Positions 8,669 to 62,505 of a stretch of 64,000 bases of DNA are shown piece after piece. Both the position numbers and the translations under genes were made by a program. The notes under the pieces are model-generated. The model was not told where the DNA came from, ran no database searches, and saw nothing but the letters and a program-made list of their open reading frames with translations. Source of the stretch: Arcticibacter eurypsychrophilus (GTDB lineage: Bacteria; Bacteroidota; Bacteroidia; Sphingobacteriales; Sphingobacteriaceae). The first letter of the stretch is position 1; each line of letters starts with the position of its first letter. The DNA lies in the NCBI RefSeq assembly GCF_001730525.1, contig NZ_MDFN01000009.1, positions 62,001 through 126,000 on the forward strand, written 5' to 3'.

Positions 8669-8709
8669 TATTTTTTAATTTTATATTGAAAAGGATAGGC
8701 ATTCCAAAT

Positions 8710-10206: not shown

Positions 10207-10233
10207 CTTAGTTCGTTTTAAATGATAAAAAGA

Positions 10234-14593: not shown

Positions 14594-14629
14594 AATTAAT
14601 CTATCTACCGGGTAAATATAGTCTGTAAT

Positions 14630-15766: not shown

Positions 15767-15777
15767 AGTTATCAAAT

Positions 15778-17121: not shown

Positions 17122-17124
17122 AAT

Positions 17125-17808: not shown

Positions 17809-17844
17809 CACCGCTGTTTTAAATCACTACTATCAAAGCCCATT

Positions 17845-44356: not shown

Positions 44357-45709
44357 TTAAAATCCACTATCATCCAGCGCAAATGTATTCTTCCGATCCT
44401 TCCATTTACCTCTGGTAAAATCAGGGAACTTTTGTGGTGTATTGCCTTCTTCTATTGATTTTTCTGAAAGTGGGGTGATTACGCTCATGGTCAGCGAATC
44501 ATAGATGTCAATCGGCGTTTGTTTCCGCTGTTTTACAGACTCCACAAAAGCGTTAAACACAAACCAATCCATTCCCCCATGTCCTGCCCCATCCGCTTTA
44601 CTTGCATATTTTTTCCATAAAGGATGGTCGTACTTTTCCGTCCAGATGCTGGCTTTATCCCATTCATCATAGTTTTTTGCCTGATCTTCAATATATATCG
44701 ATTCATTAATGTCCATCCAGATGCCTTTTGTTCCTTGCACCCTGAAACCTAGTGAATAAGGCCTTGGCAAATGCGTGTCATGCGATAAAGTAACCGTTTC
44801 ACCATTGGCACAATTCAACATCGTGGTCACAATATCTCCGTTTTTAAACTTGATGGAAGCATTTTTATTTCCGGGAGCGACCTTCGATATGTAGGCATTT
44901 AGTCCCGGTGATTTAGAAGCAAAGGACACCAGGTTGGTAAACCGGTTTCCCCGGTTGATGTCAATATAGTTCATCACCGGACCTGCACCATGTGTCGGAT
45001 AGATATCACCATTCCGATCAATATTAAACTGTGTTCGCCATTGCGCTTCCCCTACGGTTTTCGGTCCGAATTCGGCTCCTTTTCCATCAAAGTTTTTGCC
45101 GTCATTGAATAATATACCACGAAGATCATGCTGATAACCGCCTTCGAGATGTACCAGTTCACCAAACAGGTCTTTCCTCACCATATTTAAAACTGCGAGT
45201 ACGTCTCTTCGGTAACATACATTTTCGAGGGTCATGTATGGTACCTTCGTTTCTTCGTATACCTTCAGGATGTCCCAGTGATCATCTTCAGAGAGTCCGG
45301 CAATTACCTCACAACCCACATATTTCCCGGCCCTCATGGCATCAATGGACTGTTCTTTATGAAATTGCCATGGTGTGGCTATAATTACGCCGTCAATATC
45401 TTTTCTTTCCAGAAGCTTTTTATAGGCCTCGAGCGATCCGGTATATTCTGCAGGAAGTTTTTTCTTCGCCTTCACGAATTGTTCCCGACAATATTTCAAG
45501 GAGCTTTCCTGAGTATCACAAATAGCTACTATTTCCACGTCGGAACGCAGTAAGCCCTCTCCGATGTGGTTACGCCCACGTAATCCTACTCCGATATAGC
45601 CTAATCTTATTTTATCGGCATTTTTGCCGAAGAGTAATCCTGAAGGTAAAATTGTAAAACCTGCAAGTGCTATTGCACTGCTTTTGACAAAGTGTCTGCG
45701 ATCCATCAT
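44357..45709 (-). CDS. GH109-like Gfo/Idh/MocA oxidoreductase (probable alpha-N-acetylgalactosaminidase)
   Basis: 450 residues. Tat-type signal with twin arginine at 4-5 (MMDRRHFVKSSAIALAGF). NAD-binding Rossmann fold starting IRLGYIGVGLRGRNHIGEGLL. The GH109 pattern is followed closely: GKYVGCEVIAGLSEDDHWDIL, ENVCYRRDVLAVLNMVRKDLFGELVHLEGGYQHDLRG, YPTHGAGPV and INRGNRFTNLVSFASKSPGLNAY. GH109 enzymes use NAD+ transiently to cleave alpha-GalNAc. Last gene of the sus operon, 12 bp behind a NahK-like kinase, which would take the released N-acetylhexosamine. An unrelated sugar dehydrogenase is less likely given the motif match. Confidence 0.85.
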   Translation of the reverse strand: MMDRRHFVKSSAIALAGFTILPSGLLFGKNADKIRLGYIGVGLRGRNHIGEGLLRSDVEIVAICDTQESSLKYCREQFVKAKKKLPAEYTGSLEAYKKLLERKDIDGVIIATPWQFHKEQSIDAMRAGKYVGCEVIAGLSEDDHWDILKVYEETKVPYMTLENVCYRRDVLAVLNMVRKDLFGELVHLEGGYQHDLRGILFNDGKNFDGKGAEFGPKTVGEAQWRTQFNIDRNGDIYPTHGAGPVMNYIDINRGNRFTNLVSFASKSPGLNAYISKVAPGNKNASIKFKNGDIVTTMLNCANGETVTLSHDTHLPRPYSLGFRVQGTKGIWMDINESIYIEDQAKNYDEWDKASIWTEKYDHPLWKKYASKADGAGHGGMDWFVFNAFVESVKQRKQTPIDIYDSLTMSVITPLSEKSIEEGNTPQKFPDFTRGKWKDRKNTFALDDSGF

Positions 45710-45721
45710 TGTATAATTTGG

Positions 45722-46840
45722 TTAATTCTTTTTATATGCTTTCCTCTCGTTCTGGATGGTACTTTTCAGTACTTCCACATGGGTATTCAGCATTTTAAAC
45801 AATTGAAGCTGTGCTCTTGTACGTTGCAAATTATGGGTATCAAATTTGACCTTAAAATACTGATCGCCGTTGATATAATCTTCAAGGAAACGCACAGCCT
45901 GCATATAAGGAAGCAGCAGAACGCCCATAATCAGTGAATTTACCTCGCTTTCGGTCAGGAAACTATTGGCCTCTTTTAAATACCCCTTGGTATAGGCATC
46001 GAACAAATGAAAGTTAAGCTTTATTTTGCTCAGATCCTCCTCATCCTCTGCCTCGGTATTGATAATCGTACGGATGGCATCACCGAAATCAAAAGCCACA
46101 TATCCGTCCATTACCGTATCCAGATCAATCACGCATTGAGCCTCGTCATTCAGGTCAAGCAACACGTTATTAAATTTGGTATCGTTATGGATCACCCGCC
46201 TGGGGAGTACCTTTTGCTGTTCCGGCTTTTGAAAGTATAACATGGATCCAGCGTGTTCATTAATAAATTGAAGCTCTGTTTTTACGTGTTCAGCGCGACC
46301 GGATAGGTTATTATGTACAGCCGTTTTCAGGTTGGCCAGTCTGAATTCAATATTATGAAAATTAGGAATCACCTCATACATTAAACCGGCGGGCAAGTCG
46401 GAAAGCATCTTTTGGAACTTGCCAAACGCTTTACCTCCCTCATAAGCTTGTTTTTCTGTTTCGACCACATCATAACTTTTTGTATTCTTCAGGAAGTAGC
46501 ACATGCGCCAGTAGTCACCATGCTCATCTTTATAATAATACTTTTTATTCCGGCATGGTATCAGCGTCATGACTTCTTTATCGGGATCACCTTCGTTTGT
46601 TTTTTTGATCTTATCCTTGAGATGTTCAATGACAAGGCACATGTTATCCGTCAGCTTTTCCACGTTTTTAAAAACATGATGATTAATGCGCTGCAATAAA
46701 AAATCACTATCCGACGTGTCCAGATTCTTCAGAAAATACGTATCGTTTATATGGCCAGAGCCAAATATTTTCAAAGAATCGGCATCTACGTGACAATTGA
46801 AATTGGATACTAATGCGGGTATATTATCTAGAATTTGCAC
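45722..46840 (-). CDS. NahK-like N-acetylhexosamine 1-kinase (APH fold)
   Basis: 372 residues starting at GTG (46840); a stop lies just upstream in frame and no nearby ATG fits better. The kinase fold shows GSGHINDTY (27-35), a NahK-like ATP loop, then the catalytic RRVIHNDTKFNNVLLD (Asp220) and CVIDLDTVMDGYVAFDFGDA for metal binding. NahK of bifidobacteria phosphorylates GalNAc and GlcNAc at C1. Placed between the DUF4832 lipoprotein and the GH109-like gene, it fits a path in which liberated GalNAc becomes GalNAc-1-phosphate. Related APH-fold kinases act on other sugars or amines, so the substrate is inferred. Confidence 0.8.
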   Translation of the reverse strand: MQILDNIPALVSNFNCHVDADSLKIFGSGHINDTYFLKNLDTSDSDFLLQRINHHVFKNVEKLTDNMCLVIEHLKDKIKKTNEGDPDKEVMTLIPCRNKKYYYKDEHGDYWRMCYFLKNTKSYDVVETEKQAYEGGKAFGKFQKMLSDLPAGLMYEVIPNFHNIEFRLANLKTAVHNNLSGRAEHVKTELQFINEHAGSMLYFQKPEQQKVLPRRVIHNDTKFNNVLLDLNDEAQCVIDLDTVMDGYVAFDFGDAIRTIINTEAEDEEDLSKIKLNFHLFDAYTKGYLKEANSFLTESEVNSLIMGVLLLPYMQAVRFLEDYINGDQYFKVKFDTHNLQRTRAQLQLFKMLNTHVEVLKSTIQNERKAYKKN

Positions 46841-46912
46841 GCTTTACTAATTTAGAATTTGTAAAATTTCATTTGGATAAATGATTCCCTGATCTGAAAA
46901 TCGAATAAGTGG

Positions 46913-48466
46913 TCAGATCACTTTCAGGGTATGATTTAACCTATTAAAACCAGTCTGTTCTTCCCAAACCCCATCATTAGCCAGACGGATGCTATATTCA
47001 GGCCGGGTAGAGATACTGGCATACTGATCGGGCAGGTTGAGCAAAAGCTCGTAATCTCCCGAGGCAAGATCCATAGGCACTGCGATGCTTTCTTCTAAGC
47101 TGAACATCCCGGAATACCACGTTCTCACATCCGTACTGAGATCAAAAGACCGCTCTTCACCAGTGTTTACATTTCGCAGGATTAATTTCGCCGTCCTTTT
47201 ATTAAAGGGGGATGCATAACCTGCATTTTTAAAATTAAGTTTAATAGAAAAAGGACTTCCCTTGACCACTTGATCGGGCAATACCGCAGTTTGAAGCACA
47301 AAGCGATAACCCATATTCTTTTTGATGTTATCCATACAGCCACCACTTTGCCAATCATTGTTGACGGCAGTATTGTAATGCGCATTGATAAAACTGTAAT
47401 GCAGGGAAGCAAATTCTTCCTGCGCTTTACCGGCTGGCTCACAATCATTTTGCGGACTGTAATCATCCGAACAGGTTTCTCCACCAACTACGACGAATTT
47501 ACTGTCACTCTTCATGTAATCACGCAGCGTATTGACTACGGAGGCATCTGAAGTTCGTGGACTTAAGCTATTCCCATAATCTTCATACGTCCCAAAATCA
47601 TTGGCACTGGCTAAAAAGCAGTCATTATGAAACCCGATACGGGCATTGTCTGCTCCAGTAAAGGCAGCCTTTTCGGTTAAAGCGGCCGAAGTCAGTAATG
47701 AATTGACTCCATACAGGTAACGCTGTTTAATTTGCGGGTAACGCACCTGCACCATCCGATCGGCAGGTACAGCATCCAGCATGGCTTTAATCACCTGGAT
47801 CCGATCCAACCAATTGGCATCGGTCAACTTATTTCCCTGACCACCGTTTGTAGATGCATCTCCAAAAAAGTCACTGTAGTATTGTTCACCCCAAACGCCT
47901 ATAAAACCAAGCTGCACACAGGCAATCACATCTGCATTCTCCTGGAGTACGGGTTTTAATTGGGCGATGTGATTGAGGATGGTACTTTTTGGCGCATCGC
48001 CATATGGGGGACAGATAAACCCTTCGGGACAGTTGCCCGCTTTAGACGTTACCGTGTATACAAACCGGGGAATTAACTTGACACCAGCTGTCCGTGCAGC
48101 CTGCATGTCCTTTTGCATATTGCTTAAAAAGGCAGAAGCGATAGCGCTATTGGTCAGGTTATCTAAAATATAATAGCGAAAAACCAGGGTACTGGCTACC
48201 TGATAGCTTGCAGTAGGAATAGTTTGCGGCGTACGGTAACCCTTCAGTTCATCCGCATTGAGGACAGTAAAGTTACTGGCATAGGTTTCGGAATAACGGT
48301 AAAAACCTCGTTCAGGATTTGGAAAATCTTCCTGACTTTCCTGATAGGTAACGGTCTTTTTCGTAATAAGCAACAGTTCGTTTTTAGCTTCAGTACAGGC
48401 GCAAAACAGCAGCAAAAGCAGCATTGCAGGTATACGTTTTATAAGAGAATGGTCGTGGTTTTTCAT
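46913..48466 (-). CDS. DUF4874/DUF4832 lipoprotein, candidate glycan-active enzyme
   Basis: 517 residues with a lipoprotein-like signal (LLLLLFCACTEA, an imperfect lipobox). Residues about 38-215 match DUF4874 (FPNPERGFYRYSE, AARTAGVKLIPRFVYT, VIACVQLGFIGVWGEQYYSDF), with a TIM-barrel look and conserved acidic residues. Residues about 225-400 match DUF4832 (VRYPQIKQRYLYG, ARIGFHNDCFLAS, VVGGETCSDDY). A C-terminal immunoglobulin-like part follows (about 405-517). No activity is established for this pair to my knowledge. In the operon it lies between the DUF5009 protein and the NahK-like kinase, so a surface or periplasmic enzyme acting on the same amino-sugar glycan is the natural guess. Confidence 0.75.
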   Translation of the reverse strand: MKNHDHSLIKRIPAMLLLLLFCACTEAKNELLLITKKTVTYQESQEDFPNPERGFYRYSETYASNFTVLNADELKGYRTPQTIPTASYQVASTLVFRYYILDNLTNSAIASAFLSNMQKDMQAARTAGVKLIPRFVYTVTSKAGNCPEGFICPPYGDAPKSTILNHIAQLKPVLQENADVIACVQLGFIGVWGEQYYSDFFGDASTNGGQGNKLTDANWLDRIQVIKAMLDAVPADRMVQVRYPQIKQRYLYGVNSLLTSAALTEKAAFTGADNARIGFHNDCFLASANDFGTYEDYGNSLSPRTSDASVVNTLRDYMKSDSKFVVVGGETCSDDYSPQNDCEPAGKAQEEFASLHYSFINAHYNTAVNNDWQSGGCMDNIKKNMGYRFVLQTAVLPDQVVKGSPFSIKLNFKNAGYASPFNKRTAKLILRNVNTGEERSFDLSTDVRTWYSGMFSLEESIAVPMDLASGDYELLLNLPDQYASISTRPEYSIRLANDGVWEEQTGFNRLNHTLKVI

Positions 48467-48500
48467 ACATAAATATTTTAAACGTGATTATTAGCCTTTA

Positions 48501-49601
48501 TCAGATTTTGAAAAATAGTTTGTTTCGGTATAACCAGATGCATAGCAACCATTCCAACACCAATACTGTAAATGCAGAAACAACTGCAATGAAGGAGGAT
48601 GATAAACCGGCAAAAGACAGAAAACCGTCAATGAAAATAAATACAGTTGGGTTAAGCCATTGCATACCGACCGTTTCAAAAAACAGATAGATGAACAAGG
48701 CATTCATTCCTGCGGCAGAAAAGAGATGGGCGAACTTTTGCTGCCGGCATAGATCTACCAACCAGTAAAACGCGGCTAGGATGAGTAAAACCCAACCACC
48801 GGAAGCGAATACGAAGGAAGAAGTACTGATCCTTTTGATGATCGGGGTCAGCGAACTTAGATCCAGCGCCATTCCAGCAAACAATAAAACAATTCCTGCA
48901 AATACTAGTCCCTGTAACTTATTTTTTTTTGATCTTTCCGAGTAAAGCCATTTTCCTGCAAGTACACCCCAAATGGTATGGGCAGCAGTGGGGATGATGT
49001 TGATGGCCACCCAGCCGTCCTCGTTAATCTTGCCCATAAGCAACATATCGGTGTAGGATCCAAAATTATGACCTTCCGTAAAAGGCTGATTGAACCCGGG
49101 GATATTGATAAAACGGTACAGCAGCTCGGTGGTCAGCAATAACAGGATGGAAAAAAGAAATTGCCTAAAAAAAGACTGCTGGATAATCAGATAGGCAATC
49201 AGTGTGGTGAAGGCTAACTGCGTAAGTACATTCCAGAGTTCAAACACCAGCTTACCGGCATAGACACAATGTAAGGCGATACCAAGAACAAACAAGCGTA
49301 AACAACGCAGAAGGATATGTTTGAGATTAGCGTTCCAGCTGATTCCTTTCATTTCCTTGCGCTGATAGGAAATAAATAATGCTGTTCCGGCCATGGTCAT
49401 AAAGGCAGGCTGCACTAGATCCCAAAAGCGCAGACCATGCCATCGATGGTGAAAAAACTGATTGATTAATCCACCTGTTACTCCCGTTAGGTGTAAGTTT
49501 TGAAGTGATACGTACAGCTGACAGCTTTCGGCTGCCAGCAATAACATAATGATTCCCCGCATCACATCAAGTGACACCATACGGTCCTGTTGGTTCTTCA
49601 T
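48501..49601 (-). CDS. DUF5009/NagX-type membrane acyltransferase-like protein
   Basis: 366 residues from ATG 49601, chosen because it lies 4 bp after the previous stop; a longer frame would overlap the PKD gene. The opening QQDRMVSLDVMRGIIMLLLAAESCQLY and HHRWHGLRFWDLVQPAFMTMAGTALFISYQRK is typical of DUF5009, related to heparan-alpha-glucosaminide N-acetyltransferase (HGSNAT/NagX). About ten membrane helices follow, with the HHRWHG and HTIWGVLAGK segments conserved. HGSNAT carries acetyl groups across a membrane onto terminal glucosamine. In this operon it may N-acetylate a free amino sugar before GH109-like cleavage (inference). Confidence 0.82.
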   Translation of the reverse strand: MKNQQDRMVSLDVMRGIIMLLLAAESCQLYVSLQNLHLTGVTGGLINQFFHHRWHGLRFWDLVQPAFMTMAGTALFISYQRKEMKGISWNANLKHILLRCLRLFVLGIALHCVYAGKLVFELWNVLTQLAFTTLIAYLIIQQSFFRQFLFSILLLLTTELLYRFINIPGFNQPFTEGHNFGSYTDMLLMGKINEDGWVAINIIPTAAHTIWGVLAGKWLYSERSKKNKLQGLVFAGIVLLFAGMALDLSSLTPIIKRISTSSFVFASGGWVLLILAAFYWLVDLCRQQKFAHLFSAAGMNALFIYLFFETVGMQWLNPTVFIFIDGFLSFAGLSSSFIAVVSAFTVLVLEWLLCIWLYRNKLFFKI

Positions 49602-49605
49602 ATGC

Positions 49606-50475
49606 TTAATCAGCCATGGGTATAAGGTATCCTGAGGCACCTGCATCCGGAGCACTTCCTAAGGTAACGGACCAGTCACTTTTAGTTGCAGTCATTCCAA
49701 TACGGAGCGCCTGTCCCATCAATCCTTTTAGCTTGCCTCTTGCCAAACGAAACTCAAACCTTAATAAACCATTGGCCGATTCGGTTACCGTTCCTATTTG
49801 CAGGAAGTCGGAGATCGATTGCTGGTCGAATGAAAAATCAGTTTGTGCACCTTTATGATAAAAAACATCCAGTCCGGCTGCGAGTAATTGACCTTCCAAT
49901 AACACGTCGTATCCTCCATCGGGAAATGCGGAGGTCAGTAATCCTGTACCGGCGCTATTATCCGTATCCATATAGAGGTCGAAAATATCTCCATTGGCAC
50001 GTTTGGAAACCATTTCTACATAGACATATACATAGTTGCCGTCATAATCATATTTCACCGTTCTAAATGTGCCGCCCCCTGTACCGGAGGTGATCACATT
50101 TGCGGTTACCGTATTCCAGTCATCCAAACTGTTATCATTCAGTTTTACAGGTGACGATTTAGAGATCCGGATCACGGTAGAACCTTCTGCTGTAGCACCA
50201 CCTGTTACTGTAGCCACCAGGGTAGCTACATATTTTCCTTTTCCGGGATATACGTGAACGGGACTCTCCTCTGTTGAGGTGGTTCCGTCGCCGAAGTCCC
50301 AGGTATAGGAAGCGGCATTGGTTTTATTCGTAAAGGTGACTTGGTTTCCATCAACCGCCAGGTCATAGATCACATCTGTAACCGGCAATACCTGATCATC
50401 GTCCTTGCAGGATCCCAGCAACAGAGTTACGGTGAAAAGTGTAAGGAGAACCGTATTTTTATATATCTTTTTCAT
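49606..50475 (-). CDS. PKD-domain lipoprotein in SusE/F position
   Basis: 289 residues with lipoprotein signal (LLGSC, Cys23) followed by KDDD, an export signal for surface lipoproteins. Residues about 35-108 form a PKD domain (TNKTNAASYTWDFGDGTTSTEESPVHVYPGKGKYVATLVATV). Residues about 115-289 form a beta-rich domain with the acidic DLYMDTDNSAGTGLL segment, resembling SusE/SusF-type or carbohydrate-binding folds. It is 23 bp behind susD, where Bacteroidota loci put their glycan-binding surface lipoproteins. No enzyme motif was seen. Confidence 0.85.
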   Translation of the reverse strand: MKKIYKNTVLLTLFTVTLLLGSCKDDDQVLPVTDVIYDLAVDGNQVTFTNKTNAASYTWDFGDGTTSTEESPVHVYPGKGKYVATLVATVTGGATAEGSTVIRISKSSPVKLNDNSLDDWNTVTANVITSGTGGGTFRTVKYDYDGNYVYVYVEMVSKRANGDIFDLYMDTDNSAGTGLLTSAFPDGGYDVLLEGQLLAAGLDVFYHKGAQTDFSFDQQSISDFLQIGTVTESANGLLRFEFRLARGKLKGLMGQALRIGMTATKSDWSVTLGSAPDAGASGYLIPMAD

Positions 50476-50498
50476 TATGTTCCTGTTTTAGGGTGATT

Positions 50499-52013
50499 CT
50501 AGGGATTTTGAGTAACCAGTTTATTGGATAAGACCTCATCAATAGGGAGATAATAAATGATCCGCGGACTTTCCCAGCTTACCACCATGTTGTTGTATCC
50601 TGAAGGTGCTTTAGAGAGGTCGATATCGGTTTCTTTTAATCCAGGTAAGTGGTAACCCCAATAGGTACGGTTCATATTCCGTTTATTCCGGTACACATCG
50701 AAATTACGGTGTCCTTCGAAAGCCAGCTCAATTCTTCTTTCGTTTAACACAACATCCAGCACGGATAATCCTGAAGGAGCGCTCCCATTATAGAGAGAAG
50801 CCTGGAGTCCCCTATTCTTCCTGATCATATCCACATCATTCAGAGCGGCAGGGTTGGCTCCTGATTTGGCTTCTGCTTCAGCTTTATTCAGGTACATCTC
50901 AGAAAGACGGAACATAATGGGTGAGCTGAGGTTGGGAGATCCACCCTGAAAAGAAAACTTGGTTATATAATAGGCTTCCATCCCATTTAACTTTTTTATG
51001 TTATTGCTTGCGTCTTTTCCTGGAACAATATAAGACCATCTTATATCTTCAGGATGCGCAGCCATCAGGTTACGTAAGGATTGTGATACAAACTCTTCGC
51101 CCCATCCGGAGTTACCATCAGAATAAATCATGGAAGCGATAGAACCGAATTTGCCGTAGTCATCACTTTCGGTAAAGGCCACACAAAAGATGGTCTCGGA
51201 ACCAGTGGCTGCGTTTGCAAACAGGGATGGGTAAGTGGCAGCAGTTGTCAGTGTGAAGCGACCTGAATTAATTACCATGTTAGAGTACTCAATGCATTTT
51301 GCGTAATCGTTCATATAGAGGTAAACCCTGGATAGCAATGCCCATGCGGCCTCTTTGGATGCATATTGAACTCCGCGGGGTTGAGTCATGAGACTGGCAG
51401 CATTTTCCGCATCTGCAATAACGGAGGCATACACTTCGGCTACTGTAGCTCGTGGTTTTTGTGCATCATCCGTCAGGGATGTGCGCAGTACAATACCGGG
51501 AGCTGAGGGATTATGTGTATAAGGTTTTGCAAATAAGCGTACTAAGTTGAAATGATTAAAGGCACGTAAAAAATAGCACTCGCCCAGTAACTGCTGTTTA
51601 GTGGCATCCTGAGTACCGGCACTTTCTACTGCTGAAATGACGGTATTTACTCCATTGATGATTTTGTAGGAGGCATACCAGAAATAACGGGTATTTGATT
51701 GTGATGCAGTATGTGTTAAGGAGAAACTGTAATACAAGGGATCTGTGGTCACTTGTCCGGATGCGATATCATCACTGGCAAAGTCGGATAGCTGGAAATA
51801 CTGCCGCAGATACATGTTGTTCTGGTCTTCAACACCATTGAAGACAATATGATCTTTAAACAAGGCATACGCTCCATTTAAGGCATTGGTCAAACCATCA
51901 GAAGTGGTGGTTAACGTATTGGTGGAGATGGCATCACTGGGTTCTACGTCCAGTTTACAACCGGAGAATAGTAAGGAGACCACCGTGAACAGCGTTATGA
52001 TCGATTTTTTCAT
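50499..52013 (-). CDS. SusD/RagB-family nutrient-binding lipoprotein
   Basis: 504 residues from ATG 52013 (MKKSIITLFTVVSLLFSGC, Cys19 acylated); a longer frame to 52037 would overlap susC. Typical SusD content: LTTTSDGLTNALNGAYALFKDH, LLGECYFLRAFNHFNLVRLFAKPYTH with the TPR helices, and the C-terminal RfxSusD signature VLNERRIELAFEGHRNFDVYRNKRNMNRTYWGYH. It caps the SusC transporter encoded 11 bp upstream and binds the target glycan. It belongs to the canonical SusD group, unlike the SusD of the phosphonate locus, which is of the SusD_2-like type. Confidence 0.96.
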   Translation of the reverse strand: MKKSIITLFTVVSLLFSGCKLDVEPSDAISTNTLTTTSDGLTNALNGAYALFKDHIVFNGVEDQNNMYLRQYFQLSDFASDDIASGQVTTDPLYYSFSLTHTASQSNTRYFWYASYKIINGVNTVISAVESAGTQDATKQQLLGECYFLRAFNHFNLVRLFAKPYTHNPSAPGIVLRTSLTDDAQKPRATVAEVYASVIADAENAASLMTQPRGVQYASKEAAWALLSRVYLYMNDYAKCIEYSNMVINSGRFTLTTAATYPSLFANAATGSETIFCVAFTESDDYGKFGSIASMIYSDGNSGWGEEFVSQSLRNLMAAHPEDIRWSYIVPGKDASNNIKKLNGMEAYYITKFSFQGGSPNLSSPIMFRLSEMYLNKAEAEAKSGANPAALNDVDMIRKNRGLQASLYNGSAPSGLSVLDVVLNERRIELAFEGHRNFDVYRNKRNMNRTYWGYHLPGLKETDIDLSKAPSGYNNMVVSWESPRIIYYLPIDEVLSNKLVTQNP

Positions 52014-52024
52014 GGTATTTCGTT

Positions 52025-55024
52025 TTAGAACCTGCAATTAATATTGAAAAGAAACTGTCTGTTATTGGGGTATTTAAAATCGGATACCCCCGGTGTGGTA
52101 TAGCTACCCAGTACAATGGTGGTTTGTGGATCCTGACCCAGGAAGTTAGAGAACGTAGCCACATTGTCGGCAGATAAGGAAAATGTTAGTCCCTGTAGAT
52201 TCAACTTATTGATCCATGGTTTCGGGAAGTCAAAAGAAAGAGCGATATTCCTGATGGTGAAGAAACCGCCGTCTTTGAGGTAACGGGTAGAGGTTTCAGT
52301 GGAGTTGGCTGAATTTTGGGGACTAGGTTCCGTTGCTATATCTCCTGGTTTAGTCCAGACGACTGCGTCATCAGGCATTTTTAGCTGGTTATAGTAAGGT
52401 TCATGTCCGTCATTCATCACGAAACGCAGGTTATTACTAAACACTTTGTTGCCGTAATTGAAATAGGTATTAACTTGTAGACCAATGTTTTTATATCGGA
52501 ACGAGTTGTTAAACCCGCCTTGGTATTTCGCTAAAGCAGAACCCACTTCCTGCATGGTTGCTTTCTCGTAATCAGTGGTTGCTTCTTTGGATACCGCTTT
52601 GCCATTCTCATCTTTTATGACAACTGCCCAGGTTGGTGCTCCGGTTTCGGCATCTACACCCAGCCATTCGGGCATGTAAAACTCATATAGATTACCGCCG
52701 TCACGATAGATCTGCGAAATGCTCCAGGAAGCACCTGTTTTTATGATATCGGAGGGAAAGTCCTTTAACTTGTTGGAGTTAAAGTTGACGGTAAAGTTGG
52801 TATTCCAGTCGAAGTCTCTTGTTTTGATATTAGCCGTGTTCAGACTAAATTCAATACCATCGTTTACTACTGTACCTGAGTTTTCCCATCGTTGTTCGAA
52901 GCCAACAGAAAGCGGTTGTGAAACCTGAAGCAGGAGATCTTTAGTTACGTTATGGTACGCGTCAATTGACAGATCAACCCTTTTAAATAAGCCGATATCA
53001 ATCCCTCCATTGGTTTGATGTTTACTTTCCCAAGTCAGATTTGGACTTGCCAGCTGATAAGGGATCGCTCCGGAGAGTGCATTATATTGGGTGTTCAGTG
53101 CAAACAAACCGAGGTAACGGGATGCTCCGATATCCTGTGTACCAGTTATTCCGTAACTTAAGCGTAGTTTAAGATTGCTTAGTACAGGGCTTTGTTTAAG
53201 GAAATCTTCATTACTGATCAGCCATGCTGCAGATGCCGCTGGAAAAGATGCTCTACGATTTGCCTCAGGAAAGGCTGAGGATTCATCTATACGATAGGAT
53301 CCTGTTAAAAAATATCTATTCTTAAAGCTATAATTCAACTGGGAGATGAAGGACTGCAGTGCAGAACGGTTATTGTAACCATTTACCAGCTGACTGTTAG
53401 AAACGACATTAAGTACCCTTAAGCCTTCGGGAAGACCCTTACCCGATCCTCCGGAATATTCGGATTTGCTTCCTTCAAAAGCAAGGCCCGCCAGTCCGTT
53501 TAAGGCATGGTCGCCAAACTGGAAATTAAACTTGAAGAGATTATTGGAGATGCCTCCGTAATTTAGCGTATTCAGTTCATCAAGGTAACCGTTATTGTGA
53601 TAAGTTCCTGCTACTGTACGTGAAAAGTAATTGGTACCCTTATTGAAAGAGGCGGCTACACGACTGGAGCTGGTAAAGGTCAGCCATTTGGTTAAGGTAT
53701 AGTTTAAGGTAAAATCGTAGTTCAAATCAAAACCTTTATAAGGGTGATCTGAATTGGCTACGGTATGTACCGGATTGATCTTGTCGCGAGACCACCACTT
53801 GAAGGTTGAATTACCATCCACATAAATAGGATTGCCTGATTCATCGTAAGGATTATCCCAAGGCATGTTTAGAAAGGAATAGTATACATCCATATAGTCG
53901 TAACTCTTTCCTGTATTTCCACTTAGATTGATGTTATTCGAGACACTAATCTTATCAGAAAAACGATAAGTAGAGTTGGCACGGAGGTTTACGCGTTGAT
54001 AGTCGGTGTTCATGAAGGTACCCTTCTCCTTGTAATAGGATAGACCGGCATAATAATCCGCTTTGTCTGTTTTTCCAGCCGCAGATAGATAGAAATTATA
54101 CATCGGCTCAGACGTAAAGGATTTCTTGCCCCAGTTGTAATTCTGATCTCTCAGCTCGAGGGGACGTTCACTATAGAACTTAATCAGGTCTATTTTATAA
54201 GAATTATCCGTTGCTCCAGGAATATAATCATGGTAAAATTCTTTCTGGTGTTCATACAATTCGCTGCCATTCATCATCTTCATCTTGCCAAAGTCCGCAG
54301 TACGGATCCCTGAAACTAAGCGTGCTTCAAATTGGGTCTTGCCGGCTTTAGCGGTTTTAGTGGTGACAATGATAACACCGGCGTTGGCTTGTGAACCATA
54401 CATGGCTGTAGCGCCAGCATCTTTCAACACCGTTACGCTCTCCACATCATTGGGATCGTAGTTGCCACCAATTATACCATCTACAACAACTAATGGACTC
54501 TGAGAGGCGTTAATAGAGGAAACACCTCTTAAACGAATTTCGGCAGCTGCCCCGGGAGCACCAGAACTGTTTACGACTTGTAAGCCGGCTACCTTTCCCT
54601 GGAGCATGGTACCGATCGTGTTAGCCGTTACATCCTTCAGATCATCAGCCGAGACGACAGCAACAGCAGAGGTTAGCTCACTTTTCTTTTTGTTGCTATA
54701 ACCAACGACAATGACTTCGCCTAGTTGCCGGTTATCTTCATTCAGGACAATGTTCATGAGTCGGCCCTCTACGGCCCTGATATCCCGGGACACATAGCCA
54801 ATGGAACTAATTGTCAAAATAACACTTGTTGGGAGGCCAAGAATGGAAAAAAGGCCATTCTGATCGGATAACACACGATTTGTAGTACCTTTAATGGTAA
54901 TTGTCGCGCTTGGAACCGCTACACCACTAACAGCAGACACAACTTTGCCTTTAAATGTCACTGTTTGAGCTAAAACGTTTAGGCAAACACCTAAAATACA
55001 TAGCAGAAGTAGTATTTTCTTCAT
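52025..55024 (-). CDS. SusC/RagA-family TonB-dependent outer-membrane transporter
   Basis: 999 residues: signal peptide (cleaved near LAQT, about 20), carboxypeptidase-regulatory-like domain (about 22-95, FKGKVVSAVSGVAVPSATITIKGTT), and plug domain with the hallmarks VVSADDLKDVTANTIGTMLQGKVAGLQVVNSSG, SQSPLVVVDGIIGG and VLKDAGATAMYGSQANAGVIIVTTK. The beta-barrel ends in FLFNINCRF. With the adjacent SusD it imports oligosaccharides. First gene of a seven-gene minus-strand operon. A tandem LacI-type operator lies 149-179 bp upstream. Confidence 0.97.
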   Translation of the reverse strand: MKKILLLLCILGVCLNVLAQTVTFKGKVVSAVSGVAVPSATITIKGTTNRVLSDQNGLFSILGLPTSVILTISSIGYVSRDIRAVEGRLMNIVLNEDNRQLGEVIVVGYSNKKKSELTSAVAVVSADDLKDVTANTIGTMLQGKVAGLQVVNSSGAPGAAAEIRLRGVSSINASQSPLVVVDGIIGGNYDPNDVESVTVLKDAGATAMYGSQANAGVIIVTTKTAKAGKTQFEARLVSGIRTADFGKMKMMNGSELYEHQKEFYHDYIPGATDNSYKIDLIKFYSERPLELRDQNYNWGKKSFTSEPMYNFYLSAAGKTDKADYYAGLSYYKEKGTFMNTDYQRVNLRANSTYRFSDKISVSNNINLSGNTGKSYDYMDVYYSFLNMPWDNPYDESGNPIYVDGNSTFKWWSRDKINPVHTVANSDHPYKGFDLNYDFTLNYTLTKWLTFTSSSRVAASFNKGTNYFSRTVAGTYHNNGYLDELNTLNYGGISNNLFKFNFQFGDHALNGLAGLAFEGSKSEYSGGSGKGLPEGLRVLNVVSNSQLVNGYNNRSALQSFISQLNYSFKNRYFLTGSYRIDESSAFPEANRRASFPAASAAWLISNEDFLKQSPVLSNLKLRLSYGITGTQDIGASRYLGLFALNTQYNALSGAIPYQLASPNLTWESKHQTNGGIDIGLFKRVDLSIDAYHNVTKDLLLQVSQPLSVGFEQRWENSGTVVNDGIEFSLNTANIKTRDFDWNTNFTVNFNSNKLKDFPSDIIKTGASWSISQIYRDGGNLYEFYMPEWLGVDAETGAPTWAVVIKDENGKAVSKEATTDYEKATMQEVGSALAKYQGGFNNSFRYKNIGLQVNTYFNYGNKVFSNNLRFVMNDGHEPYYNQLKMPDDAVVWTKPGDIATEPSPQNSANSTETSTRYLKDGGFFTIRNIALSFDFPKPWINKLNLQGLTFSLSADNVATFSNFLGQDPQTTIVLGSYTTPGVSDFKYPNNRQFLFNINCRF

Positions 55025-55351: not shown

Positions 55352-56368
55352 CTAAGGGCAATAGGTGATCATCTGCGAATCAATAATCACCTGGTTATAT
55401 AGCGTTTCAGGTTCATTAGAGCGCATGAGCTGAAAAAGGATTTCAGTGGCCTTCTCTCCTTGTTTGTATGGAAATTGTTCAATGGATGCCAGGGGAAGAG
55501 TATCCATGTACTGCCAAAGCGGTAAATTTGCAAAACTAATGAAGCTCACATCTTTATTCATAATCAGTCCGGCTCGTTTAACCATAGACATGCAATCAAG
55601 CAGAACATAGTCATTGAAGACGATGATGGCGGTAGGTTGCTGCTTTAAGGATAAGAGTTGATGAAGGGCATTGGTGTTGCCATCCCTTGTAAGATCCGTC
55701 GAGACAATCAGATCGGATTCAAAGGAGATCCCTGCTGCACGAAGGCCTTTGGCATAGATTTCCAGTCTTTGTCTGCTGGCAAATAGTTTATGGGGACCGT
55801 TAATCAGACCGATGAGCGAGTGCCCGCTTTCCGTGAGCTTTTGAATAGCCTGAAACATGCCGGACTCCAGATTGCAGGCCACACAATGAATCTCCTTTTT
55901 ATCGGGAACGCGGTCAAAGAAAACAATAGGAATATTATACTTGCTTAACTGATTAAAATGATCATAATTTGAAGTTTCCTTCGTAATGGAGACCAGCATA
56001 CCATCAACCCTGTGGGTTTTCATATTTTCAAGGATGCGCTTTTCGCGTTCAAAATCATCCAGAGATTGTCCCATAATGACATTATAGTCATTAGCAGCAG
56101 CAAAATCCTCAATCCCACTAATTGCTGCAGAAAAGAAGGGCTCTGATAAGCTGGGCAGAATTACCCCGATGGTATAGGTTTTACGTTCTTTAAAGAAAAT
56201 AGCAGACTGATTCCTTTCGTAACTTAATTCTTTTGCAAGTTCGTGCACCCGGGTAGTAGTGGTAAGCCCGATACTCGGATGATTATGAAGGGCACGGGAA
56301 ACTGTGGAAACCGAGACCTTCAAAATCTTAGCAATTTCTTTAAGGGTAGAAGGAGTTTTGTTGATCAT
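55352..56368 (-). CDS. LacI-family transcriptional regulator
   Basis: 338 residues. The N-terminal helix-turn-helix is in STLKEIAKILKVSVSTVSRALHNHPSIG (about 7-34), followed by the hinge-like LAKELSYERNQSA. A periplasmic-binding-like sensor domain fills residues about 65-335 (TIGVILPSLSEPFFSAAISGIEDFA, VDGMLVSITKET, PIVFFDRVP, FNDYVLLDCMSMVKRAG). It should bind the CAATCG-type operators 150 bp downstream, ahead of susC, and respond to a sugar derived from the glycan. By site similarity it may also control the GH31 gene at 21979. Confidence 0.95.
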   Translation of the reverse strand: MINKTPSTLKEIAKILKVSVSTVSRALHNHPSIGLTTTTRVHELAKELSYERNQSAIFFKERKTYTIGVILPSLSEPFFSAAISGIEDFAAANDYNVIMGQSLDDFEREKRILENMKTHRVDGMLVSITKETSNYDHFNQLSKYNIPIVFFDRVPDKKEIHCVACNLESGMFQAIQKLTESGHSLIGLINGPHKLFASRQRLEIYAKGLRAAGISFESDLIVSTDLTRDGNTNALHQLLSLKQQPTAIIVFNDYVLLDCMSMVKRAGLIMNKDVSFISFANLPLWQYMDTLPLASIEQFPYKQGEKATEILFQLMRSNEPETLYNQVIIDSQMITYCP

Positions 56369-58495: not shown

Positions 58496-59587
58496 ATGGA
58501 TCTCAATCAAACAAAAAATCTTCCCTTTTATATTAAATTAGCCTGTGTTCTTTTCAGCCTGATTGCTTTATTTTATATTATCATTATTGCTAAAGAGATT
58601 TTATCTCCGCTGATATTTTCATGTCTATTTTCTATCTTATTACTGCCATTAGCTTCTTTTTTTGAGTATAAATTACGCCTTCACAGGAGTGCTGCATCTA
58701 TGCTTTCTGTTTTGATCTTATTAACTTCTTTAAGCCTCATCTTATATATTATAGGTTCGCAGATTTCTAATCTGGCTGATGATTGGCCTCTTTTTCAGCA
58801 ACAGTTAAATTCATCTATAAACATTATTCAGAATTGGATCTCTACCACTTTTCATATAAACTCAACTAAGCAGTTGACCTATTTGCATACTGCTACCACC
58901 AAAGTAATGGCCTCAGGAACAGTAGTTATCGGAGCGACACTCTTGTCGTTATCTTCCATGATGCTATTTTTTGTCTTTACTTTTATTTACACTTTTTTCT
59001 TTTTATTATACCGCAGGCTGATTAAAAAATTTCTGACCTCTGTTTTTCTGGATGAGAATACAGCACTCGTACACGATATTATTGAACAGGTTCAGTATAT
59101 TATCAGGAAATACATTGTCGGTTTACTGATAGAAATGGCTATAGTTGCGGCTGTTGTATGTCTGGCTTTCTGGGCATTAGGAATAAAATATGCTATTCTG
59201 TTGGGCCTCATCACCGGATTATTTAACATCATCCCTTACATTGGAATCTTTACAGCACTTGTACTGAGTACGCTGATTACCTTTGCAACCGCGGCGGTGC
59301 TGAGTAAAGTGATTGTAGTGGTTGTTATCCTGGTGGTTGTTCACCTGATAGACAGCAATATATTATTACCCCTGGTGGTTGGTTCCAAGGTTCGAATCAA
59401 CGCTCTAATTACCGTTTTAGGGGTAATTATCGGCGAAATGATCTGGGGAATACCTGGTATGTTCTTATCCATACCGGTGATCGCTGTTCTGAAAATCATC
59501 TTTGACCGGGTGGAAAGTCTAAAGTCATGGGGTATTATTCTCGGCGATGAGGATCATAAAGAATCTTCAAAAGACCTTGAACTTTAA
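58496..59587 (+). CDS. AI-2E/PerM-family transporter
   Basis: 363 residues with about eight membrane helices. The family pattern is clear: LACVLFSLIALFYIIIIAKEILSPLIFSCLFSILLLPLASFFE at the start, a soluble insert (LADDWPLFQQQLNSSINIIQNW), then ALGIKYAILLGLITGLFNIIPYIGIFTALVL and VVGSKVRINALITVLGVIIGEMIWGIPGMFLSIPVIAVLKIIFD. The family has been linked to autoinducer-2 or ion export, but substrates are mostly unknown. It is a single gene. Its stop shares TTAA with the stop of the convergent GH115 gene. Confidence 0.93.
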   Translation: MDLNQTKNLPFYIKLACVLFSLIALFYIIIIAKEILSPLIFSCLFSILLLPLASFFEYKLRLHRSAASMLSVLILLTSLSLILYIIGSQISNLADDWPLFQQQLNSSINIIQNWISTTFHINSTKQLTYLHTATTKVMASGTVVIGATLLSLSSMMLFFVFTFIYTFFFLLYRRLIKKFLTSVFLDENTALVHDIIEQVQYIIRKYIVGLLIEMAIVAAVVCLAFWALGIKYAILLGLITGLFNIIPYIGIFTALVLSTLITFATAAVLSKVIVVVVILVVVHLIDSNILLPLVVGSKVRINALITVLGVIIGEMIWGIPGMFLSIPVIAVLKIIFDRVESLKSWGIILGDEDHKESSKDLEL

Positions 59588-62505
59588 AGTTTTTTAGTTT
59601 CAGGGATGATGCTATAAGCTTTTTTAAGTCCGCCCAGGTCTATAGTGACCCGTTGAAGAATAACTCCGGGATCAACCATATAAACCTTCAGGGTATGTTT
59701 GCCCTTGTTTAGTAAAGGCCCTTTAACATGCGAGATGGCACTGTTTCGCAACACATTCTGCTTCCATTCTTCAGATCTTCCTATCGTTTTATGATCAATC
59801 AGGGTAGTCGGACCACCATCAATAGAGATGGCAAATCGCATGCTGAATTTATTGTTTAGTGGATGGGTAGGCAAGGTATATAGGTCTAATTCAGCAGCAG
59901 ATTTCTGAAATGTGATAAAATCATATTCCAGGACTGGAGCATTTTTTATAAGATCAGATACAGGCTGGGTCAGAGAAACAGGATGGTCTAAGGGCATAGC
60001 AATTAGAGATGTTTCCACCTCTCCTAAACCCTGTATGGTTTCCCATTGGGATTGCGTGCCCACAATTTTACGTGTAAAGTTTTTGGCAAGCATAGATACA
60101 TAGCCGTTATCTTCTACAAATCCGGTATAATTAGCAGGAAGAACAGTTGGATTGTTAAAAACAGGAACTTGTACGCTGATTGTTTTACCTGCGGCACTAA
60201 ACTTAATTTCACCTTTTTGAGGTGCTTTAGGCGAAATTTTAGTCCAGTCAATACTCACCCATATTCTGGTTTCTTCTTTTCCTCCCTCGGATTTCAGGGT
60301 ACCGGCTTGCTGGTCTATACGAATCCATTTATTATTTGTTTTAGCAGTCCAGTTCAGCTCTTTTTCATCACTTAAATACAAATCGATAAAATACTTTTTA
60401 TCTGTTAGCTGATTAAATTCCGGAAGAGTAAATATGTTGTTTTTTGCCTTGTTTAGCGAAGAATCGCTCTTGATATATCCTTCAGGGGATAGATTCCACA
60501 CCGCAGATTTGTTTATCGATACAGGGGGAAATTCAGGTTTTAAATAAACAGGAAGATTGCGTGGCTGCATAGACATCATATTGTTCCATTTTCCACTGGA
60601 TAATTGATGGTTATAGTAGGCTGTCTCTTTTACTATACCAGTGTATGCTTCTTGAGACAATCGCTCATAATATACTGAACTTAAGCGATTTTGCTTCGCA
60701 TATAAAACACTTTTATCCTTATAAAGGAACTTTTTATTTATTAGGGAAGCGCCAACGACAGGGTAATAAACAAGCTGGTAGTATGCATCAGAATCAGCTG
60801 AACTTATTTGCGGACGTAGCTTTTTTACTACTGTTTCAATCTTTTGATAGCTGTCTATACGACGTTGAGCTTCGTCGCCATAATAAAAATGATTGTAACC
60901 GGTATTAGACGTTTTAGTGGTAGGCTCCGTTTGACTCCATCCTATAAATTCAGGTTTACGTTCAAACGCGAGGTCGTAATACTGCCAAAGAGTACTGCTG
61001 ATCTCCTTTGAATGTTCTTTTCCAAAGATTCCTTCTACCCAATTGTTGAGATGCCTCCGGCTATAATCACTGTCTTTAAAAGGTTCGGCCTGATAAGCCA
61101 TATCGAGAAAAAACTGGATATTGTATTCCAGTGGTTTAATATCGCCTACATTCAGTACCCATAAACGGTCAGATCCAGTCATGTAAGCCTTCATCATTTC
61201 CTCTCTAATTAATCCAGGATGTGTACTGCTAAGCCACAAATAATCATGTGGCCTACCCCAATAAGAGGCATGGTAATAGATTCCTGAGCCTCCGGAACGA
61301 TTTTCTTCTTTTTCACTGTTGAGCCGCTGGATATAACCATAGTTGTCATCCGGCCAAACCAGGGTAACATCTCCAGGTAACTGAAGGTTAGCATCATATA
61401 TTTCAAGCACTTCCTTATAGGCGGTAAAAACCTGGGGGATTTCCTTGATGTCTTTATGCAGGTTTTTAGTCAGCATTCCCCGCTGATCTTTAAAGATTTG
61501 ATGCAACAGGGGAACAGCATCTTGAACACTTTTTATTCCTTCCATACCACTATCATGAACGCCACGCATTCCCAGCGTATATACAGCTTCATTGGCACTA
61601 CTTTCTTTAACCCGCTGCTCCCAATAATTATACACGTTTTCTTTGTTGGTGATATAGTTAAATGCACCATGATTTTTATCCCACTCGTCTACATTATTTC
61701 TTAACATCGGCTCTGCATGTGACGAACCGATAAGAAGGCTGTAATCTGCAGCCATTTTTTGATTGCCTGGGTAGTGATAAAAGGCTTTGGTACTGGGATG
61801 CATGGCTGGCCAGATCAGGTTTGCTTTTAACCGGAGTAAAAGTTCAAAGATTTTAGCATACGTTTTGGGACCAATGTCACCTGTTTCGGGTTCAAAGGTT
61901 TTTGCCGCCCAAGGTTGTAGTCCCCAATCTTCATCATTTAGAAAGATCCCCCGATATTTAACGGAGGGAGTTGCTGATAAAAAATCAGCGGTATGTACAA
62001 TAAGGTCTGTTTGAGGCTTTACAGCTACATCTGCCCACCAATACCAGGGAGAAATGCCTATCTTTTCTGATATGCTGAATACGCCATAAGCCGTTCCCCG
62101 GGCATCACTTCCTGCAACGATCAATGCTTTCGGTATATTTTTAAGCGGATTAGTTAAAATAGTTAATCCATAACACTCCCATTTATCTTTTAGTCCTTGA
62201 ATTAAAGTTGACGCTGCCGGCAACAGCTTGCGGATAAGGGATGAATGAACATCGCCTATTACAATTACATTGCCGTTTACTTTAGAAAGATCGGTAAGAA
62301 CTTGAGTTTGAAATCCGGTAACACGTTTAATATCCTGTTGCAATAGGGTCGCGGTAATGGAATCGAGCTTCGGACCTTTTGAGTCGTACACAATACTGGC
62401 TATTGTATTTTTATCCAGAATAGTAAAATCCTGAGCAAAAACAGAGGAGCAACAGGTAAACAGTACAAAAACAAAAACGAGTTGCTTGAGGTACAGGTTA
62501 ATCAT
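59584..62505 (-). CDS. GH115 alpha-glucuronidase
   Basis: 973 residues, the usual GH115 length. Signal peptide to about residue 25 (SVFAQ). The N-terminal domain and TIM-barrel carry family stretches GTAYGVFSISEKIGISPWYWWADV, VKYRGIFLNDEDWGLQPWA, LLLRLKANLIWPAMHPSTKAF, HAEPMLRNN, YTLGMRGVHDSGMEG and VTLVWPDDNYGYIQRLN. C-terminal Ig-like segments follow to residue 973. GH115 enzymes remove (4-O-methyl)glucuronic acid from xylan or arabinogalactan side chains. No other xylan gene is present, so it probably works with a remote locus. Confidence 0.95.
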   Translation of the reverse strand: MINLYLKQLVFVFVLFTCCSSVFAQDFTILDKNTIASIVYDSKGPKLDSITATLLQQDIKRVTGFQTQVLTDLSKVNGNVIVIGDVHSSLIRKLLPAASTLIQGLKDKWECYGLTILTNPLKNIPKALIVAGSDARGTAYGVFSISEKIGISPWYWWADVAVKPQTDLIVHTADFLSATPSVKYRGIFLNDEDWGLQPWAAKTFEPETGDIGPKTYAKIFELLLRLKANLIWPAMHPSTKAFYHYPGNQKMAADYSLLIGSSHAEPMLRNNVDEWDKNHGAFNYITNKENVYNYWEQRVKESSANEAVYTLGMRGVHDSGMEGIKSVQDAVPLLHQIFKDQRGMLTKNLHKDIKEIPQVFTAYKEVLEIYDANLQLPGDVTLVWPDDNYGYIQRLNSEKEENRSGGSGIYYHASYWGRPHDYLWLSSTHPGLIREEMMKAYMTGSDRLWVLNVGDIKPLEYNIQFFLDMAYQAEPFKDSDYSRRHLNNWVEGIFGKEHSKEISSTLWQYYDLAFERKPEFIGWSQTEPTTKTSNTGYNHFYYGDEAQRRIDSYQKIETVVKKLRPQISSADSDAYYQLVYYPVVGASLINKKFLYKDKSVLYAKQNRLSSVYYERLSQEAYTGIVKETAYYNHQLSSGKWNNMMSMQPRNLPVYLKPEFPPVSINKSAVWNLSPEGYIKSDSSLNKAKNNIFTLPEFNQLTDKKYFIDLYLSDEKELNWTAKTNNKWIRIDQQAGTLKSEGGKEETRIWVSIDWTKISPKAPQKGEIKFSAAGKTISVQVPVFNNPTVLPANYTGFVEDNGYVSMLAKNFTRKIVGTQSQWETIQGLGEVETSLIAMPLDHPVSLTQPVSDLIKNAPVLEYDFITFQKSAAELDLYTLPTHPLNNKFSMRFAISIDGGPTTLIDHKTIGRSEEWKQNVLRNSAISHVKGPLLNKGKHTLKVYMVDPGVILQRVTIDLGGLKKAYSIIPETKKL

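Follow-up and report, generated by a model that had tools for sequence, protein, structure and literature searches.

The window analysed here, a 64,000-nucleotide stretch of the 4.69 Mb assembly of Arcticibacter eurypsychrophilus, a soil-type member of the Bacteroidota (NCBI RefSeq GCF_001730525.1, contig NZ_MDFN01000009.1, positions 62,001 to 126,000), contains a seven-gene operon that is predicted to act on glycans containing N-acetylgalactosamine (GalNAc). The predicted orientation of the locus toward GalNAc is strongly supported. The reading we favour, and consider reasonably probable, is a polysaccharide-utilisation locus (PUL) for partly de-N-acetylated α-linked galactosaminans of the galactosaminogalactan or Pel kind that includes a transmembrane re-N-acetylation step. 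The computed basis is gene content, family placement, folds, conserved residues and conserved neighbourhoods, from which we infer the polymer target, the acetyl acceptor, the order of steps, the localisation of the proteins and the route past GalNAc-1-phosphate.

A seven-gene SusCD-type operon

The open reading frame (ORF) list and profile matches define seven nearly contiguous minus-strand genes running from 55024 to 44357 as one apparent operon, in the order SusC, SusD, PKD lipoprotein, HGSNAT/NagX-like membrane protein, DUF4874/DUF4832 lipoprotein, NahK-like kinase and GH109:

52025–55024, minus strand: SusC/RagA-type TonB-dependent outer-membrane transporter, 999 amino acids (aa) (TIGR04056, 717 bits, cut-off 368)
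50499–52037, minus strand: SusD-type lipoprotein (SusD-like_3, 91.6 bits; SusD_RagB, 80.6 bits)
49606–50475, minus strand: PKD-domain lipoprotein, LGSC-KDDD (PKD_4, 49 bits; gene order conserved among relatives)
48501–49655, minus strand: predicted HGSNAT/NagX-like transmembrane N-acetyltransferase (NF046061, 123.7 bits, cut-off 480; HGSNAT fold)
46913–48466, minus strand: DUF4874/DUF4832 lipoprotein, predicted TIM-barrel glycoside hydrolase with a C-terminal β domain (Pfam DUF4874, 142 bits; DUF4832, 204 bits)
45722–46840, minus strand: NahK-like N-acetylhexosamine 1-kinase of APH fold, no signal seen (APH, 52 bits, cut-off 23; 4wh1, E 7e-59)
44357–45709, minus strand: predicted GH109 α-N-acetylgalactosaminidase with a Tat-type signal, RRHF (GH109_C, 284 bits, cut-off 27)

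Adjacent susC and susD homologues accompanied by glycan-active enzymes place the operon among SusCD-type PULs, and a matching locus is present on a 226,998-base contig of Pararcticibacter amylolyticus. ORFs and profiles recovered all seven genes and families listed in an original prediction made for this DNA; its label of DUF5009/HGSNAT-like for the membrane protein stood for the HGSNAT kinship, seen in both profile and fold, and fell for DUF5009, with no Pfam match to the protein at E 0.001. The true start of the SusD-type lipoprotein is probably an internal ATG (MKKSII) and that of the membrane protein probably the MKNQQD within the listed ORF. Judged from its domain and position, the PKD lipoprotein is a likely surface glycan-binding protein, with a putative lipoprotein and surface signal recognised by eye.

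GH109 and NahK-type enzymes orient the locus toward GalNAc

GH109 is an NAD-dependent (nicotinamide adenine dinucleotide-dependent) family. With the window protein as query, the best solved relative is 2ixa, annotated as an α-N-acetylgalactosaminidase (484 bits, E 2.8e-144, 52.6% identity across 426 aligned residues), followed by a second GH109 chain, 6t2b, at 249 bits. Because these scores far exceed that of the best other chain listed (47.8 bits), the protein does not fall, judged by scores, among the ordinary dehydrogenases, a placement the original prediction had named as refuting its reading. The GH109_C profile (PF21252) is matched at 284 bits against a cut-off of 27, alongside an NAD-binding Rossmann domain, and the functional residues E149, Y179, H228 and Y307 of 2ixa are all identical in the window protein. 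Scores and residues together make the prediction of a true GH109 enzyme sound. A twin-arginine motif (RRHF) at the N-terminus is presumably a Tat-type export signal.

The kinase was likewise correctly anticipated as NahK-like, with homology to the N-acetylhexosamine 1-kinase of PDB entry 4wh1 that extends over nearly its full length (phmmer E 7e-59, residues 11–353 of 372). The two proteins share 36.4% identity over 330 residues, and the window kinase retains 4wh1 residues D208 (the catalytic aspartate), D228, R306 and Y317. The sequence evidence for a predicted NahK-type N-acetylhexosamine 1-kinase is sound, and placement of the GH109 and kinase proteins bears out the GalNAc orientation first proposed. 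For comparison, BT4240, a kinase that prefers GalNAc, is reported to share 39% identity with the enzyme of Bifidobacterium longum (PMC11992087).

A membrane protein related to HGSNAT with an altered acceptor site

For the membrane protein the nearest NCBIfam model is that of NagX (NF046061), at a score that does not reach the equivalog cut-off. A profile of 31 membrane-protein sequences reaches human HGSNAT at E 1e-15. The AlphaFold model (mean predicted local distance difference test score, pLDDT, 85.9) returned 15 Foldseek rows at E ≤0.001, all of them HGSNAT entries with a best E of 3e-11, and VIA comparison gave HGSNAT at Z 33.5 with a root-mean-square deviation of 2.9 over 333 residues, GWT1 at Z 21.9 and everything else at or below 7.3. 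We relate the protein to HGSNAT because profile and fold matches agree.

In HGSNAT, catalysis is reported to involve an H297–D307 dyad, with R275 and R345 binding coenzyme A (CoA), N286 contacting the acetyl carbonyl and R372 contacting the sugar (PMC11199644). An alignment of the window protein with 30 of 36 full-length relatives (A4, 31 rows) reveals D30, R33, H69, D79 and R117 as invariant in 31 of 31 rows. In an ungapped alignment H69 falls on H297, D79 on D307 and R117 on R345, and R33 is equated with R275 by a DxxR motif alone. Around N286 and R372 the HMMER alignment is gapped, and these places were matched by motif and by hand. When the count starts at the DxxR motif, E43-S44 stand where HGSNAT has N286 (E43 in 31 of 31 rows, S44 in 28 of 31), and an asparagine near this place occurs among the listed homologues in one group of six or seven (L169–L172, L175, L176). 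The R372 place, located through the VL motif that follows it, is a glutamate (E139) in 30 of 31 rows, and is an arginine in most other listed homologues, with exceptions that include L173_0 and L174_0. The window protein thus has the HGSNAT fold and the counterparts of H297–D307 and R345, and lacks the N286 and R372 pair of HGSNAT proper. A retained dyad and R117 beside altered N286 and R372 places argue for an HGSNAT-type machine with a remodelled acceptor site, and the predicted enzyme belongs to a separate subfamily. The protein probably carries out the same chemistry as HGSNAT, and the conserved His-Asp dyad and fold support the acetyl-transfer step that had been proposed. For the bacterial relative NagX, work on five bacteria reports a part in the use of glucosamine but none in that of N-acetylglucosamine (GlcNAc), Caulobacter being a possible exception, and NagX has been proposed to acetylate periplasmic sugar (PMC9007349).

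The DUF4874/DUF4832 lipoprotein is a candidate depolymerase

Both Pfam domains of the fifth protein, DUF4874 and DUF4832, score well above their cut-offs (30 and 29 bits, respectively), and its structure model is of high confidence (pLDDT 94.4). VIA comparison placed GH14 β-amylases at the top (Z 14.0), and under the rule of the tool GH5 enzymes, which reach Z 13.6, tie with them. Foldseek also ranked β-amylases first; because the Foldseek TM-scores lie near 0.3, the β-amylase relation is distant. In an alignment of the window protein with 56 of 65 ORFs (A3, 57 rows), residues E194 (in GFIGxWGE), E330 (in GGETC, just past a late barrel strand), D157 and D282 are invariant in 57 of 57 rows. The modelled barrel and invariant residues form a predicted glycoside-hydrolase pattern, and the protein is probably the depolymerase of the locus, a role suggested by fold and invariant glutamates where the original prediction had assigned none. 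No match to the endo-galactosaminidase families GH114, GH135, GH166 or GH191 was found in Pfam or among the 50 structure rows listed, which is no evidence against a relation.

One DUF4832 protein already described is SIR_1591 of the Streptococcus intermedius pel operon, which combines a TIM barrel with DUF4832, disrupts Pel-dependent aggregates comparably to PelA-h and has β-amylase as one of its two reported structural likenesses (PMC12345266). DUF4832 genes are also reported to adjoin the pel clusters of streptococci and clostridia directly (PMC7112168).

Conserved neighbourhoods link the acetyltransferase, DUF4832 and GH109 proteins

Across 151 genomes of the family, with distances taken between matched stretches, DUF4832 is matched in 25 genomes, 17 of them above the cut-off. 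All 15 DUF4832 places above 200 bits, a line chosen after the list was seen, have a window-type membrane protein 96 to 871 bases away, and the gene order of the operon is far above chance because every one of these strong places adjoins the membrane protein within 0.9 kb. Three of the next five places (181–192 bits, a shorter type of DUF4832 protein) share such a locus (L033, L034, L044), and no such membrane protein was found in the 20 kb taken around the other two (L046, L047). Viewed from the membrane protein, the family genomes have 23 places at 269 bits or more (the next at 143), 15 of which lie beside DUF4832. Elsewhere the acetyltransferase occurs in a SusCD-PKD-acetyltransferase-NahK-CBM9-GH109 locus without DUF4832 (L177), beside SusC/SusD-like genes (L178, L180) and in a locus cut by the contig end (L184). 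At L181, L182 and L184 a more divergent copy lies near genes that look by eye like kdp potassium uptake and sensing genes, with no PUL.

A set from named genomes comprises the best 79 of 572 confirmed DUF4832 loci and leans to close relatives of the window protein because loci were kept by similarity to it; 64 of the 79 loci are at least 15 kb long, and neighbours were counted by phmmer score. Loci L032–L051 and L052–L130 partly overlap (for example, L043 and L055), and each count draws on one set. The window-type acetyltransferase is present in 37 of the 79 loci, GH109 in 19 when at least 500 bits are required and in 23 when 200 bits suffice, NahK-like kinases (at least 150 bits) in 23, GH31 (at least 500 bits) in 21, CBM9-like proteins in 15, NagB-type deaminases in 13, major facilitator superfamily (MFS) carriers in 10 and GalE in five. 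The GH109 count omits matches in L082 and L101 (44 and 48 bits), which we regard as ordinary dehydrogenases. By a rough hand estimate that ignores shared descent, based on 50 GH109 places in 296 phylum genomes of about 4 to 5 Mb each, chance would place GH109 in well below one locus in 79.

Neighbour genes of related loci point to GalNAc and galactosamine

Two further genes of the window have counterparts within related loci:

21979–23586, minus strand: unlinked GH31 α-galactosidase (70% identity to the GH31 inside locus L043; 8j50, E 3.8e-194)
55352–56368, minus strand: LacI-family regulator, presumed local regulator (LacI and Peripla_BP domains)

The window GH31 gene stands alone, away from the operon, and in relatives its counterpart lies inside the locus; the L043 protein matches 8j50, a chain named 'GH31 alpha-galactosidase', at E 1.4e-191. 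The LacI-type gene is upstream of the operon on the same strand, and a LacI-type gene of at least 300 bits is present in 14 of the 79 related loci.

Genes for amino-sugar uptake and catabolism recur in related loci. Locus L032 has an MFS neighbour with 385 bits to NagP, below the cut-off of 625, and a deaminase of glucosamine-6-phosphate deaminase type with 1039 bits to PRK02122 (cut-off 384), and the genome of the window has, next to each other on contig C88, genes for a NagB-type deaminase and a NagP-like protein. Both a window-type acetyltransferase and a NagP-like MFS protein are encoded in L053 and L055. The gammaproteobacterium Paraglaciecola marina combines in one locus (L129) two DUF4874/DUF4832 proteins, two sugar kinases, a NagP-like MFS protein and GH109 with AgaZ (643 bits, cut-off 569), NagA (343 bits, cut-off 226) and an AgaS-family isomerase (496 bits, under the cut-off of 529). 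An Alkaliflexus locus (L105) contains AgaR (268 bits, cut-off 260), four DUF4832-type proteins and one GH31, and two Pricia loci (L082, L084) contain AgaS-family genes at 362 and 356 bits, under cut-off. The Aga route is confined to relatives, because no AgaS-family gene was found in the genome of the window. Since some loci encode a 1-kinase and others Aga proteins, two different routes for GalNAc and galactosamine (GalN) travel with DUF4832 proteins. Candidates for handling α-Gal, α-GalNAc and GalN co-occur in related loci, which matches the composition of galactosaminogalactan.

Three other neighbours recur. A protein of 660 aa that contains a DDGW motif lies beside the locus in L036 (10625–12610) and in four of the 79 loci (L064, L085, L087, L104), and for its L036 representative (661 aa) Pfam, NCBIfam and PDB gave no match at the thresholds applied. 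Proteins of β-helix type, which are possible further depolymerases, occur beside DUF4832 genes in eight of the 79 loci (also L034:9867–11453, L035:11926–13482 and L047:7695–9251). In three Rufibacter/Sabulibacter loci, a nucleotidyltransferase-like gene (L089:15218–16135; weak, under cut-off) lies beside NahK and NagB genes, and its product could convert GalNAc-1-phosphate to uridine diphosphate (UDP)-GalNAc.

A proposed galactosaminan pathway and its alternatives

In the pathway we propose, the DUF4874/DUF4832 lipoprotein would cleave the polymer, and the PKD protein, SusD and SusC would bind and import the resulting oligosaccharides. The HGSNAT/NagX-like protein would draw on cytosolic acetyl-CoA to put the acetyl group back on galactosamine at the periplasmic face, the acceptor being either free GalN or the GalN that ends an oligosaccharide, and the Tat-exported GH109 enzyme would then free α-GalNAc. 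GalNAc might cross the inner membrane through an MFS carrier encoded elsewhere, such as the NagP-like one on contig C88, and the NahK-like kinase would trap it as GalNAc-1-phosphate for later conversion to fructose-6-phosphate. Candidate substrates are Pel of Pseudomonas aeruginosa, reported to be mainly a GalN–GalNAc α-1,4 repeat (PMC9135694), and galactosaminogalactan, made of Gal, GalNAc and GalN (PMC12054363). Of the targets named in the original prediction, galactosaminogalactan-like polymers gained support from SIR_1591 and from the GH31, GalE and Aga genes of related loci, and mucin-type glycans lost it for want of a peptidase and a β-galactosidase.

Several observations weigh against this pathway. 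The membrane protein falls far below the NagX cut-off (123.7 against 480 bits) and, like most of its homologues, has no asparagine near the N286 place of HGSNAT, with a glutamate at the R372 place; it is also solitary at four family places (L179, L181, L182, L183). None of acetyltransferase, GH109, NahK, GH31 or NagB occurs in 33 of the 79 DUF4832 loci. At phylum level DUF4832 is present in 15 of 296 genomes, five of which also have GH109 (48 of 296 overall), and the two genes lie near each other in two of those five, numbers too few to decide. The DUF4832 barrel fits GH14 and GH5 about equally, with TM-scores of about 0.3, and is silent on an α-galactosaminide substrate. Among NCBIfam models the best match to the GH109 protein is that of a glycoside 3-dehydrogenase, over residues 3–134 and at 53 bits against a cut-off of 750. 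The likeness to SIR_1591 lies in a shared DUF4832 and a β-amylase-like fold. Deletion of SIR_1591 is reported to have no phenotype, and the polymer of S. intermedius is described as rich in GalNAc, since PelA and Sph3 cut it and the galactosaminidase Ega3 does not (PMC12345266); the action reported for SIR_1591 thus concerns a GalNAc-rich and not a GalN-rich polymer.

Alternative readings concern the target glycan and the membrane protein. A locus for mucin-type or other α-GalNAc glycoconjugates (Tn, core 1, blood group A) would be modelled on BT4240-50, with which the operon shares a core of GH109, GalNAc kinase and SusCD and in which BT4240 is reported to prefer GalNAc about 275-fold and BT4243 is the GH109 enzyme (PMC11992087). 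We lowered this reading to quite unlikely because the operon, searched with Pfam and NCBIfam profiles, lacks the M60-like peptidase and GH2 β-galactosidase of BT4240-50; acetylation would also be superfluous for fully acetylated mucin GalNAc, and the main text of the BT4240-50 paper contains neither 'acetyltransferase' nor 'DUF4874' (PMC11992087). A reading built on the logic of HGSNAT in heparan-like glycans was rejected because operon profile searches show no GH89 or sulfatase. The enzyme set pins the sugar better than the polymer, and exo-acting GH109 and GH31 α-galactosidase would fit any α-GalNAc or α-Gal glycan, so that another GalN- or GalNAc-bearing bacterial or fungal glycan (an O-antigen, a teichoic or capsular polymer, or a glycolipid) has some appeal, the more so as the CBM9-like and β-helix proteins of relatives are unexplained. 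We nonetheless hold such a glycan to be improbable: galactosaminogalactan requires handling of α-Gal, α-GalNAc and α-GalN only, candidates for which related loci hold together, and the one DUF4832 hydrolase found with a test acts on Pel-dependent aggregates (PMC12345266).

The HGSNAT/NagX-like protein might instead be an inner-membrane sugar carrier, or acylate something else, leaving no re-acetylation step. NagX is described as distantly related to a putative N-acetylmuramic acid (MurNAc) transporter (PMC9007349), the acceptor-site arginine is replaced by glutamate in 30 of 31 rows, and an MFS protein is labelled in just 10 of the 79 loci and nowhere among the window ORFs. Yet the fold matches the acyltransferases HGSNAT (Z 33.5) and GWT1 (Z 21.9) and nothing else above Z 7.3, the His-Asp dyad and R117 are invariant in 31 of 31 rows, and L053 and L055 each encode both the membrane protein and a NagP-like MFS protein; we consider a carrier role or another acylation unlikely.

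Returning to the galactosaminan reading, we advance a broader proposal more tentatively, with somewhat less than even confidence: the locus may be the first system to be recognised for the use of cationic galactosamine polymers of biofilms as nutrients, DUF4874/DUF4832 proteins may be a new glycoside hydrolase family of α-galactosaminan depolymerases with a two-glutamate, β-amylase-like centre, and the membrane protein may be a galactosamine-specific HGSNAT branch that undoes de-N-acetylation, so that the ordinary GalNAc pathway suffices. No account of a galactosaminan utilisation locus appeared among the literature matches listed, with most subscription papers outside the search; in the one paper listed that names both galactosaminogalactan and polysaccharide utilization loci, the polymer appears in a table with GH135 (PMC11653725). 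Bacterial and fungal biofilms are described as having Pel and galactosaminogalactan as cationic polymers of their matrix (PMC12345266, PMC12054363). If the proposal is right, environmental Bacteroidota would own a toolset against such matrices consisting of a new depolymerase family, a re-acetylating membrane enzyme, an exo-enzyme and a kinase; re-acetylation would reverse the de-N-acetylation that is the source of their cationic character, DUF4874/DUF4832 would gain a function, and Sanfilippo-type acetylation would gain a bacterial counterpart in galacto-amino sugar catabolism.

Other features of the window

Genes downstream of the operon encode a Na+/H+ antiporter and TspO and appear unrelated to it. 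A minus-strand cluster at 6998–19227 encodes a SusC-like receptor, a PA14 protein with a type I phosphodiesterase/sulfatase fold, a flavin adenine dinucleotide (FAD) oxidoreductase, a DUF5690 membrane protein, an HAD hydrolase and a class-III aminotransferase, for which aminophosphonate use is a guess. At 59584–62505 on the minus strand lies a GH115 protein (429 bits); GH115 is an α-glucuronidase family.

Comparison with known systems

The closest PUL is BT4240-50 of Bacteroides thetaiotaomicron, which shares with the window operon SusC/D, a surface binding protein, GH109 and a cytoplasmic GalNAc 1-kinase of the APH/NahK kind (PMC11992087). The window operon differs in lacking the M60-like peptidase, GH2 and MFS proteins and in having a predicted transmembrane acetyltransferase and DUF4874/DUF4832 hydrolase. 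The acetylation step resembles the NagX route, in which a transmembrane HGSNAT-type protein with a conserved histidine is proposed to transfer acetyl groups from cytosolic acetyl-CoA to an amino sugar in the periplasm, which is afterwards taken up and phosphorylated (PMC9007349). Unlike NagX, which is often found in chitin operons (PMC9007349), the window protein belongs to a predicted separate subfamily and is accompanied by GH109, NahK and DUF4832. Lysosomal heparan sulfate breakdown by HGSNAT, the enzyme of Sanfilippo C, offers a further parallel in fold, in dyad and in the acetylation of a terminal α-amino sugar so that an exo-glycosidase can act (PMC11199644), whereas the sugar predicted for the window system is galacto- and not gluco-configured and the partner enzyme is GH109.

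For the predicted depolymerase, SIR_1591 shares the combination of TIM barrel and DUF4832 and a β-amylase-like fold, and targets aggregates held by an α-1,4-GalNAc-rich polymer (PMC12345266). It is encoded in a biosynthetic operon, whereas the window protein lies in a nutrient-uptake operon and also carries DUF4874. The endo-galactosaminidases of GH114, GH135, GH166 and GH191 resemble the window protein in proposed substrate class and barrel fold and are reported to use an Asp/Glu pair (PMC12054363), in contrast to the two invariant glutamates and GH14/GH5 fold match of the DUF4874/DUF4832 protein.

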